Origin: Candidatus Solibacter usitatus
GTDB lineage: Bacteria; Acidobacteriota; Terriglobia; Bryobacterales; Bryobacteraceae
DNA: 34,437 nt
Assembly: GCA_016191645.1 (NCBI GenBank)
Contig: JACPVQ010000097.1
Coordinates: 1 to 34,437, forward strand
Direction: 5' to 3'
Below the pieces are notes generated by a model. The model was not told the origin of the DNA and did not search any database. It was given only the letters and a program-made list of their open reading frames with translations. Shown here piece after piece: positions 6,402 through 34,437 of this stretch. Position numbers and translations under genes: made by a program. How positions within the stretch are numbered: position 1 is the first letter of the stretch; each line of letters opens with the position of its first letter.

Positions 6402-6632
6402 GTGGGGCAGGCCTCCAGGCCTGCGAGGCGGTCTCCAGACCGCCTCTGTTCCAGCCCATAAGGTTAAGCTGGGTCTGGAGAACCTGATGCACGGTCGACA
6501 ACCCACCCACGGCAACTCCTGCGCGGCCGATGGCCTCTGGCGAGGCCATGCGGGATCTGGAGATCCCGCCGCAGATCTGGAGATCTGCCCCACATCGGTT
6601 TTCGTTATGACTCGTGAGACCCGGGGCCCATG
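6402..6632 (+). repeat. Palindromic repeat element, copy C (core 6402-6593 plus right flank)
   Basis: The core is 192 bp from GTGGGGCAG to TGCCCCAC. Hairpins: GCAGGCCT/AGGCCTGC (6407-6424), GAGGCGGTCT/AGACCGCCTC (6425-6446), ATGGCCTC-TGGC-GAGGCCAT (6530-6549), GCGGGATCT/AGATCCCGC (6550-6569), GCAGATCT/AGATCTGC (6571-6588). The middle (GCACGGTCGA, CCCACCCACGG) is shared with copy D, while A and B have a different middle. The right flank ATCGGTTTTC...GGGGCCCATGG is shared, inverted, with cluster A. It stops about seven bases from the stop codon of the oxidoreductase gene at 6639. Confidence 0.9.
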
Positions 6633-30305: not shown

Positions 30306-30501
30306 GTGGGGCAGATCTCCAGATCTGCGAGACGGTCTCCAGACCGTCTCTGCCGGCAGCACGAAAATGCCCGATGCGTGATCTGCAGATCCTTCGGCAC
30401 GGTCGAAAGCCCACCCACGGCGGCCACTTCACGGCCGATGGCCTCTGACGAGGCCATGCGGGATCTGGAGATCCCGCTGCAGATCTGGAGATCTGCCCCA
30501 C
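30306..30501 (+). repeat. Palindromic repeat element, copy D (complete core, 196 bp)
   Basis: This is the best-preserved copy. The two outer ends, GTGGGGCAGATCT... and ...AGATCTGCCCCAC, form a perfect 23-bp terminal inverted repeat. Hairpins: GCAGATCT/AGATCTGC (30311-30328), GAGACGGTCT/AGACCGTCTC (30329-30350), ATGGCCTC-TGAC-GAGGCCAT (30438-30457), GCGGGATCT/AGATCCCGC (30458-30477), GCAGATCT/AGATCTGC (30479-30496). The middle (GGCACGGTCGA, CCCACCCACGG) is shared with copy C. It lies between DUF1552 and the nucleoside-hydrolase-like gene, same strand. No protein-coding signal. Confidence 0.92.
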
Positions 30502-30540
30502 AGAGCAGCACGGCCGCAACCAAAGAAAATCTTCGCATCC
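30502..30540 (-). repeat. Right flank of copy D, reverse copy of the cluster C unit with leader-peptide frame
   Basis: Read on the minus strand, CCTAGGATGCGAAGATTTTC and TTTGGTTGCGGCCGTGCTGC match unit 3 of array C (CCTAGGCTGCAAAGATTCTC...) with few changes, so copy D is flanked by inverted versions of this module. From 30538 it also reads MRRFSLVAAVLLCG, a convincing signal-peptide start that runs into the palindromic core. It sits 37 bases after the DUF1552 stop. No other gene signal lies in the rest of the 444-base gap. Confidence 0.7.
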
Positions 30541-30575: not shown

Positions 30576-31916
30576 CTAGCTCAGCGACAAGCCGGCCAAG
30601 CGGCCTGTGGAATCGCCGACGTGTTTGGGATGCACATCCAGGTATTCCAGCATCGTGGCAAACAGATTCGCCACGGGCGTTTCCCGCTGGTACGTAATGT
30701 GGCGGCCGGTGTCGATTCGTTTTCCCGCGCGGCCCGCGAGCAATGTAGGCAGTTGGTCGTGGGTGTGCACGTTGCCATCGGATAGTCCGCTGCCGTACAC
30801 GATGATGGATTGATCCAGCAGGTTCGAATCGCCCTCTTTAGTTTCTTTCAACTTTTGGAGAAACGCCGCGAACAGCCGCGCATGATAGCAATTGATGTTC
30901 GCGACTTTCTCGAGCATCTCGCGATTGCCCATGTGATGCGTAAGCGGATGGTGGCCGTCGGAAATTCCAATCTCGCGGTAGCTTCGCGTGGACCCTTCGC
31001 GCCCCATCATAAACGTTGCGATGCGCGTCAGATCCGCCTTGAAGGCGATGAGCATCATATCCGTCATGAGGCCGAAGTAATCGTTGAACTCCGGTGGGAC
31101 TCCGAAAGGTTTTTCAATCCCCGGATCGATGGTGAGTCCTTCCTTTTCGGCGCGCTGCACCTGCTGCTCAATCTCGCGAACGGAGGTGAGGTACTCGTCC
31201 AGTTTGCGGCGATCCACCGCGCCGACATTCGACTGTAAGCGGCGCGTGTCATCACCCACTTGATCGAGAATGCTGCGCCTCATGGCAAGACGCCGTAAGT
31301 GATCGGCGGGCGATTCCGCAATGTCCGACCCGAACAACCGTTCAAACAATCCACGCGGATCGGAGATGGGCGGCAGCGGCTGCGATTCCGTCTTCCACGA
31401 GAGATTGTAGGTGTATGCGCAAGAGTAGCCGTTATCGCAATTCCCCGATTGGCGGGCCTCTTCCAACCCGACCTCGAGGGACGGAAGCTTCGTGTTGCCG
31501 CCAATGGCTTTGGCGGCGATCTGATCGGCGGATGTCGTCAACTTCAAATCCGCGCCAGCCGTCCGGTAAACTTCCACGCCGGTCATGTAAGCGGCGGCGG
31601 CGCGTCCGTGATCGCCCGCGCCAACCAACAGCGGCCGTCCCCAATTTGCCGTCAGGTTGGAAAGCAGCAGAATATCTTTTTTGACAGGCTCGAAGGGTTC
31701 CAACATCCGCGGCAGCTTGCCTAGAGGACCGTCGTTTTCCGGCGTCCAATGCCGCATGTCGACGCCATTCGGCACATAGAACCACGCCGCGCGCAGCGGA
31801 GATTTGGTGGCGGCGGAGAGCGCCGGAGTCATCGCGTCGAGAAAGGGCAATCCGATGGCCGCGCCGATCCCGCGCAAAAACGTACGCCTGGGGAGCGCTT
31901 TCCGCGTGATGATCAT
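30576..31916 (-). CDS. DUF1552 domain protein, Tat-exported
   Basis: A 446-residue protein with a twin-arginine leader (LPRRTFLRGIGAAIGLPFLD) and the DUF1552 (pfam07586) core: RAAWFYVPNGVDMRHW, LSNLTANWG, AGDHGRAAAAYMTGVE, LPSLEVGLEE, and near the end SIIVYGSGLSDGNVHTHDQL. The last part resembles alkaline-phosphatase-superfamily (DUF1501-like) proteins. Function is unproven; the gene almost always follows a DUF1592 gene in Planctomycetes and Acidobacteria and is thought to act with it in the periplasm. Its ATG overlaps the DUF1592 stop (ATGA), fixing the start and showing co-translation. Confidence 0.93.
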   Translation of the reverse strand: MIITRKALPRRTFLRGIGAAIGLPFLDAMTPALSAATKSPLRAAWFYVPNGVDMRHWTPENDGPLGKLPRMLEPFEPVKKDILLLSNLTANWGRPLLVGAGDHGRAAAAYMTGVEVYRTAGADLKLTTSADQIAAKAIGGNTKLPSLEVGLEEARQSGNCDNGYSCAYTYNLSWKTESQPLPPISDPRGLFERLFGSDIAESPADHLRRLAMRRSILDQVGDDTRRLQSNVGAVDRRKLDEYLTSVREIEQQVQRAEKEGLTIDPGIEKPFGVPPEFNDYFGLMTDMMLIAFKADLTRIATFMMGREGSTRSYREIGISDGHHPLTHHMGNREMLEKVANINCYHARLFAAFLQKLKETKEGDSNLLDQSIIVYGSGLSDGNVHTHDQLPTLLAGRAGKRIDTGRHITYQRETPVANLFATMLEYLDVHPKHVGDSTGRLAGLSLS

Positions 31917-34192
31917 TTCCTAGCCGTCTCCTTGTTAACTCTATTATTGTCTATTTTCGTTGGCGGAACCGGACCAGCCTCACCGCGCCGCGCCTGGAAG
32001 GGCAGGCTGCGCACGATGCCCGCAATCATTGGCTGAAGGCGGTATTCCTTAGCCGCCATCTGGCGTACGATATCGCGAACGGCCGCGCGGTCAAAGCGTT
32101 CCACGCCACGGCCCAGAGCATATGTGAGCATTTTTTCCGTGAGGCAAGACGCGAACTCCGGCAGATTCGCCGTTAAGAGTTTCTTCATCTCAGCGGGAGT
32201 GGCAAACGATTTGCCGTTAGGAAAAGTCCCGCTGCTATCGACGGGAAACTTTCCGTCCATTGTGCGCCAGCGGCCGATGGCATCGTAGTTTTCCAGCCCG
32301 AAGCCCAGGACGTCCATGCGCGCGTGGCAGGAAGCGCAGACGGGATTCGTGCGATGCTGCTCCATCTGTTGCCGCAGCGATTTCGCCGTTCCCACCTCTG
32401 CCTCATCGAGTGCCGGAACTTCCGGAGGAGCGGCCGGTGGGGGAGCGCCGAAAATATTTTCCAGCAGATACTTACCGCGAAGCACCACCGATGTACGCGA
32501 TGGATAACTGGAGACCGTGAGTACGCTGGCATGAGTCAGAATACCTCCACGCTGATCGGTGGCGAGATCGACACGCCGGAATTCCGGACCCTTCACGCTG
32601 TCAATTCCGTAATGCTTCGCCAGCGGCTCGTTCAGGAACGTGTATCTCGCATCGATGAAATCGGAGATGGGCCGGTTTTCGCGAAGCATATGATCGAAGA
32701 ACAACTGCGTCTCAGACCGCATGGCTTCGCGCAGATCCGTAGTGTATGCCGGAAACTTTGCTGGATCGGGCTTGACGGCGTCGAGGCTGCGCGTTTCCAA
32801 CCACTGGCTGGCGAAGTTCTCCGCCAATGCGATCGCCTTCGGCGACAACAGCATGCGGCGCAATTGCGCATCGAAAACAGTGGGTTGGCGGAGCATGCCT
32901 TTTTCGGCGGCTGTCAGCAATTCATCGTCGGGCATCGAGCTCCAAAGGAAGTAGCTCATGCGCGTCGCAAGCTCAAGATCCGATATGCGCGCGTAAGTGC
33001 CCGGCAGCGGGCTTCGTTCGATGCGGAAAAGAAATTGCGGCGAGACCAGCATCGCGGCAATAGCGAATTGCAGGCTCTGCCCCGGCGTGTATCCCGCCTT
33101 CAAAGCGCGCTGATGCACCGCAACCAACTTATTGACCTCCGAAAACGTCGCCGGTCTTCGATACGCGCGCCGCGTGAGCGGACTGAGAATACGAGTGACG
33201 CAAGCAACGCCGCTCGCCGGATCGCATGTCAAGATCTTCTTGCGCACGGGCGGCAATTCCGTCGAAGGGAACGGTCCGGCGATTTCAAAGGTCTCGGGGT
33301 AGATATTCTGGCTTGGATTAAACCGTGCCTGGCCTTGCAGTTTCCTGCCGATCTCGTCATTGAGAAATTCCGCTTTGTACGTGTGGCGGCCCTGCGGCAG
33401 GAACATGCGGTGCGATTCGTAGACGCGCTGCGTCGCCCCGCCTTGCTTGTTCACCAAAGTGATCGCCGATTCCACAGGCACGGTCTTGAGCGGCTTGCCA
33501 TCCACGGAGATCTGCAAAGTTACCGGCTTGCCCTCACTGCCGCGATGGCCGGTGATCAGCACGCGAATATCGTATTCGGCGTCGTAAAGCACTTCATCGT
33601 TGACCTCGATGCCTTCCCCCAGGCGTTTCACTTTGCCACGTTTATTAAACAGCCCCGGCTTCGGGAGCGGATCGGCGCCAATGGCTCGCGCGGCGATTTG
33701 CTCGCCGGCGGAAAGATATTTCTGCATCAACGTTGGTGAGACGGTGAGCACTTCGCTGATGTTGTCAAATCCATAGCTCGCGTCATCCGCGGGGAACTCG
33801 CTGGTCGCGCTGAAATCGACTCCCAAGAGGTCGCGAACCGTCGCTGCGTACTCGACACGATTCAAGCGGCGCGCAGTTACGCGGCCGGGGTCGGGCTTGA
33901 CGGCGCGGTCGGCTCGGTCGAACTCTTTCTCGACAAAATTCACCAGCGCCTCGCGATTGGCGTCCGTCAATGCCGGAGCGCCTTGCGGAGGCATTTCGCC
34001 GCCACGCAACTTGGATACAACTTTTTCCCACACCTCGCGGCCTTTCGAAAGCGAAGAAGAATCGAAGAGCGGTTGAACATTAAGGTTGCCTGATGCGAGT
34101 TGCTGGTTATGGCAAGCAAAACAGTTCTGGCGCAGCACCGGCTTCACAGTGGTGTCAAACGTTTGGCTCCAAACGGGTGTCCAAAGAAGCAC
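31913..34192 (-). CDS. DUF1592-family (planctomycete-type) c-type cytochrome protein, 5' end probably lost
   Basis: About 759 residues. An N-terminal heme-c site CFACH (~24-28) with EMPPQG as axial Met is followed by the DUF1587/1595/1592/1588/1585 series: RLNRVEYAATVRDLLGVDFS, then LATRMSYFLWSSMPDDEL, PISDFIDARYTFLNEPLAKH, RGGILTHASVLTVSSYPSRT, and a second heme-c site CASCHARMD in DPLGFGLENYD-like context. These exported multi-domain proteins are probably redox enzymes of polysaccharide or alcohol breakdown, unproven. The track start is GTG 34192, which leaves only ten residues before the mature part. In frame upstream, RRNTWLAAIVLLWTPVWSQ reads as a signal peptide but no start codon exists before a stop at 34223, so the true start seems missing. 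Confidence 0.88.
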   Translation of the reverse strand: MLLWTPVWSQTFDTTVKPVLRQNCFACHNQQLASGNLNVQPLFDSSSLSKGREVWEKVVSKLRGGEMPPQGAPALTDANREALVNFVEKEFDRADRAVKPDPGRVTARRLNRVEYAATVRDLLGVDFSATSEFPADDASYGFDNISEVLTVSPTLMQKYLSAGEQIAARAIGADPLPKPGLFNKRGKVKRLGEGIEVNDEVLYDAEYDIRVLITGHRGSEGKPVTLQISVDGKPLKTVPVESAITLVNKQGGATQRVYESHRMFLPQGRHTYKAEFLNDEIGRKLQGQARFNPSQNIYPETFEIAGPFPSTELPPVRKKILTCDPASGVACVTRILSPLTRRAYRRPATFSEVNKLVAVHQRALKAGYTPGQSLQFAIAAMLVSPQFLFRIERSPLPGTYARISDLELATRMSYFLWSSMPDDELLTAAEKGMLRQPTVFDAQLRRMLLSPKAIALAENFASQWLETRSLDAVKPDPAKFPAYTTDLREAMRSETQLFFDHMLRENRPISDFIDARYTFLNEPLAKHYGIDSVKGPEFRRVDLATDQRGGILTHASVLTVSSYPSRTSVVLRGKYLLENIFGAPPPAAPPEVPALDEAEVGTAKSLRQQMEQHRTNPVCASCHARMDVLGFGLENYDAIGRWRTMDGKFPVDSSGTFPNGKSFATPAEMKKLLTANLPEFASCLTEKMLTYALGRGVERFDRAAVRDIVRQMAAKEYRLQPMIAGIVRSLPFQARRGEAGPVPPTKIDNNRVNKETARK

Positions 34193-34197
34193 AATGG

Positions 34198-34437
34198 CAG
34201 CAAGCCAAGTATTCCGACGGGTCTACACGCGTGGTCAACCAGCTTGCGCTGTACATGACCAACAACAAAAATACGGCGGACATTGACGACAACGGCGTAG
34301 TGACCGCCGGCAAGCGCGGCGACACGTTTGTCTTCGCTCGCTTCGCCAAGTTCACCACCGGAGCGGAAGTCATCGTACTTCCGAACGACAAGAATTTCAA
34401 GTGGCCGAAACTCGCCGCGAACAACTACATCGACGAC
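34198..34437 (+). CDS. Partial Ig-like (BIG2) / DUF1549-type protein, 5'-truncated, runs off window
   Basis: The plus frame from about 34198 reads QAKYSDGSTRVVNQLALYMT, then DIDDNGVVTAGKRGDTFVFA, AKFTTGAEVIVLP and ends WPKLAANNYIDD. This is the typical bacterial Ig-like domain 2 followed by the start of a DUF1549 cytochrome-associated protein (usually continuing to DUF1553). There is no stop to the window end, but the first part of the domain, the signal peptide and a start codon are absent. ATG 34255 is the first in-frame ATG and lies inside the conserved domain. The fragment overlaps the 5' end of the opposite DUF1592 gene. It is truncated by a rearrangement or an assembly join. Confidence 0.72.

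Follow-up and report, generated by a model that had tools for sequence, protein, structure and literature searches.

Gene Organisation at the Contig End

The window analysed here, 34,437 bp in length, is the entire contig C100, and its position 34437 is the contig end. The source draft genome, which has affinities to the Bryobacterales/Solibacter group (Acidobacteriota), comprises 4.47 Mb in 267 contigs and is 79% complete. In the terminal part of the window, frame reading, comparison with relatives and Pfam searches identified a DUF1587/DUF1592/DUF1588/DUF1585 cytochrome-type gene without a natural start on the minus strand (31913..34222). The Pfam domains of the encoded protein were arranged in the order DUF1587–DUF1595–DUF1592–DUF1588–DUF1585 together with a c-type cytochrome domain, and PF07631 and the associated PSD/PSCyt domains were present in this DUF1592 (PSD4) protein. 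An intact DUF1552 (HXXSHH) gene assigned by Pfam (30576..31916, minus strand) is its downstream partner. This domain set and order, with DUF1552 next, is the same as in the DUF1592 + DUF1552 pair (PSD4/PSCyt3 and HXXSHH) of Acidobacteriota and Planctomycetota, from which the copy in the window differs only in its missing 5′ end.

The DUF1592 frame was open over 31913–34222 and was bounded by an in-frame TAG at 34223–34225. Its reading on the minus strand begins TRRNTWLAAIVLLWTPVWSQTFDTTV, and the first residues, TRRNTWLAAIVLLWTPVWSQ, form a basic n-region and a hydrophobic core with a mean hydropathy of about 2.4. No ATG was found in the 5′ region up to this TAG. The nearest in-frame start was a GTG at 34192–34190, which gives a 759-aa ORF and lies inside the hydrophobic core of the signal peptide, thus cutting into the core. 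A preliminary description of this DNA had reported a hydrophobic core but no start codon before the stop at 34223; the core, the stop and the lack of ATG were all recovered, whereas the statement on start codons does not hold for GTG. In relatives, the open DUF1592 frame generally contains an ATG about 22–45 codons ahead of the equivalent of residue 12 of the 759-aa ORF, and the N-termini available there are longer and include signal peptides. The frame in the window is shut at codon 22, where sequence resembling another contig of the same draft, C123, takes over. A comparison within the own draft genome, which took in stretches of about 120 contigs, revealed no contig with the expected region upstream of DUF1592. 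In the copy of the assembly used, ten short contigs (1.1–1.9 kb; C22, C30, C56, C58, C79, C97, C107, C109, C113 and C114) consisted mostly or wholly of N.

Elsewhere in the window, a 160-base interspersed repeat was located at 1563–1722, with related shorter pieces at 1746–1795, 6523–6631 and 30434–30537. At least about 40 near-full copies with 88%–97% identity occurred in the own genome (40 candidates scored). The predicted fold consisted of a long closing stem and five inner hairpins (−112.5 kcal/mol, z = −11.6). The repeat had no match in Rfam and was essentially absent from 11 congeners, apart from two short partial matches, both in one of them. These properties suggest a REP/MITE-like element specific to the species.

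Partial DUF1549/DUF1553 Gene and Its Intact Copy

On the plus strand, an open frame of 78 codons (34204..34437) reached the last base of the contig. The match to C123 and the Pfam assignment of the homologue identified it as a fragment of a DUF1549/DUF1553 gene, corresponding to codons 173–250 of 742 and lying just ahead of DUF1549. The fragment was identical to C123:21498–21731 (minus strand) at 229 of 234 positions (98%), far above chance expectation (E = 4.7e-112), and its last 108 bases were identical to C123. This homology broke off sharply at 34203/34204. Taken together with the DUF1592 gene, these observations bear out the earlier view that two genes lack their 5′ ends at one point.

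C123 carries the complete gene (742 aa) in the contig interior, with both DUF1549 and DUF1553 (PF07583 and PF07587 were matched). It is flanked upstream by a gene for a secreted-type protein of ca. 804 aa and downstream by a WD40-type gene with a cytochrome-like N-terminus, and a congener (G002) keeps this three-gene order with identities of 61/74/59%. The intact protein has both domains, like the known DUF1549/DUF1553 (PSCyt2/PSD1) family described from Rhodopirellula (PMC2754498), whereas the window retains just the 78 codons ahead of DUF1549. The 78-aa fragment, which precedes DUF1549, had no Pfam match at E ≤ 0.01, including PF07583 and PF07587. The preliminary description had placed the beginning of this frame in the middle of a BIG2 domain. 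The position within the protein, just before DUF1549, was correct, but no Pfam Ig or BIG2 domain was detected at E ≤ 0.01 in either the fragment or the intact protein.

The next-best full-length paralog of the C123 gene in the own genome was only 38% identical; the fragment is therefore an allele of the C123 gene, or a near-copy of it, rather than another member of the family. The five differences between them (34209, 34224, 34227, 34275 and 34329) were all silent third-position transitions, an outcome with P ≈ 0.004 for randomly placed transitions. Such a pattern indicates that the sequence was under selection within a working gene until very recently, and gives the fragment the appearance of a barely diverged allele of a functional gene. 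An old pseudogene was accordingly rejected as a description of the fragment.

Junction Zone and Comparison With Relatives

According to the sequence and the C123 match, the junction zone at 34204..34222 is plausible on the minus strand as the 5′ end of DUF1592 and on the plus strand as sequence from within the DUF1549 gene, with ca. 19–20 bases making sense in both reading frames and genes. The overlap between the two frames had previously been put at about 34198–34222; it exists, but the DNA evidence gives 34204–34222. The exact 21-base junction word (34203–34223) occurred solely at the junction. The C123 version differed at 2 of 21 bases, so a word common to both parents requires a variant allele. 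Besides C123, the own genome contained one further close relative of the word, on C221, with three mismatches and in an unrelated frame. Sites with unlike flanks frequently have words of 21 bases in common in this genome, 106 in 1.5 Mb by a rough count, which is a maximum as it takes in diverged repeats. No unusual structure stood out at the junction. An invertible or shuffled switch was rejected in view of the single close relative of the word beyond C123, in its unrelated frame, and the lack of unusual structure. Bases with a dual sense are expected from a join at a shared k-mer, and microhomology recombination would leave the same trace.

The preliminary description had also proposed a comparison of the locus with related genomes. 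In 69 distinct relatives, of which 64 had at least 1.2 kb and 36 at least 3 kb of upstream sequence, a DUF1549 gene facing a DUF1592 gene head-to-head was never found. In one relative, a weak paralog lay 2 kb from the DUF1592 gene, in the same orientation. A conserved head-to-head gene pair was thus rejected.

Other Contig Ends of the Assembly

A few other contig ends nearly duplicated sequences on other contigs, namely the end of C103 (98% over 312 bp), the end of C31 (96% over 158 bp) and the start of C86 (96% over 390 bp). These ends may represent either repeats or further chimeras of this kind. Exact terminal overlaps included one end-to-end pair of 141 bases and two of 119 bases, further overlaps of 125, 114 and 101 bases, and that of the window with C123 (108 bases). 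Standard k values of MEGAHIT include 119 and 141. The overlaps of these two lengths point to a MEGAHIT-type k, although only suggestively, because other ends have 125, 114 and 101 bases and the 108 bases of the window match no standard k. Since the overlap of the window with C123 is 108 and not 99, 119 or 141 bases, C123 by itself does not fully account for the point at which the contig stops.

Origin of the Junction

Judging from the sequence, the end of C100 is very probably a chimeric contig end, at which two unrelated ordinary genes were misjoined in metagenome assembly. This explanation is favoured because the second gene occurs whole elsewhere in the same draft, on a contig where its neighbours are conserved, the fragment departs from that gene by silent changes only, the foreign piece is just the last ca. 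234 bases of the contig and its arrangement has no parallel among relatives. The few other ends in the draft that run into near-duplicates and the exact overlaps of 119 and 141 bases also favour it. The earlier suggestion of either a recombination breakpoint or a chimeric join near 34.2 kb can thus be narrowed to about 34204–34222, and the intact copy on C123 favours the latter of its two halves.

In such a misjoin, the assembler would have walked out of the 5′ end of DUF1592 through the ca. 20-base word (34204–34222), which would also occur in the DUF1549/DUF1553 gene or in the allele of a co-occurring strain. It may then have gone about 230 bases into the DUF1549 gene, reached sequence identical to the main allele (C123) and halted; as the window and contig C100 coincide, the contig ends 234 bases past the junction. 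The actual genome would contain a DUF1592 gene with its start and with its own upstream sequence, which is missing from the draft, and a whole DUF1549 gene, as on C123. Three elements of this account are inferred, namely that both parents carry the word, that a strain allele was the source and that the assembler took this path. Chimeric contigs are known to arise from highly similar co-existing sequences or genomes, as in viromes (PMC5610896). As in chimeric contigs from de Bruijn graph metagenome assemblies, two unrelated loci meet here at a k-mer-sized word, and the foreign part is a short terminal piece that another contig carries in near-identical form; the difference is that the present join is deduced from sequence alone.

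A real rearrangement, in which a partial second DUF1549 copy was inserted or recombined by microhomology before DUF1592 and removed its start, would also fit the sequence facts of the junction. The ca. 19–20 bases of microhomology also suit illegitimate recombination, and the genome is rich in repeats. However, the differences from the intact gene are all silent, unlike those of a free-drifting fragment, the foreign piece falls precisely at the contig end and the arrangement occurs in 0 of 69 relatives, making such an event improbable. A similarly low probability is assigned to a recent microhomology-mediated recombination that fused part of DUF1549 to the DUF1592 locus and removed its export signal. 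If the rearrangement were real, translation of DUF1592 would begin at the GTG at 34192 and yield a protein that lacks a complete signal peptide, or the gene would be dead.

The ca. 2% silent divergence from C123 would fit a second strain, and the junction might exist in a minor co-occurring strain while the population represented by C123 lacks it, both having been mixed by binning. This proposal requires a second strain plus a rearrangement, and no relative has such a junction; it therefore appears very improbable. Taken jointly, a real rearrangement in the source genome or in a minor strain is still unlikely. The in-frame GTG at 34192 would be compatible with a genuine, unbroken head-to-head gene pair whose starts are short or unusual, but the DUF1549 frame begins at codon 173 of the 742 codons of a gene complete elsewhere, identity stops abruptly at 34204, and the N-termini of DUF1592 in relatives are longer and carry signal peptides. 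The intact C123 gene already contradicts this last alternative, which can practically be dismissed.

The junction holds nothing biologically new and is very probably not a real feature. The gene calls at this position, a DUF1592 protein without its signal peptide and a partial DUF1549 protein, are unfit for conclusions on the loss or order of genes or on divergent promoters. The finding matters solely as quality control, and the last ca. 234 bases of the contig deserve a flag.
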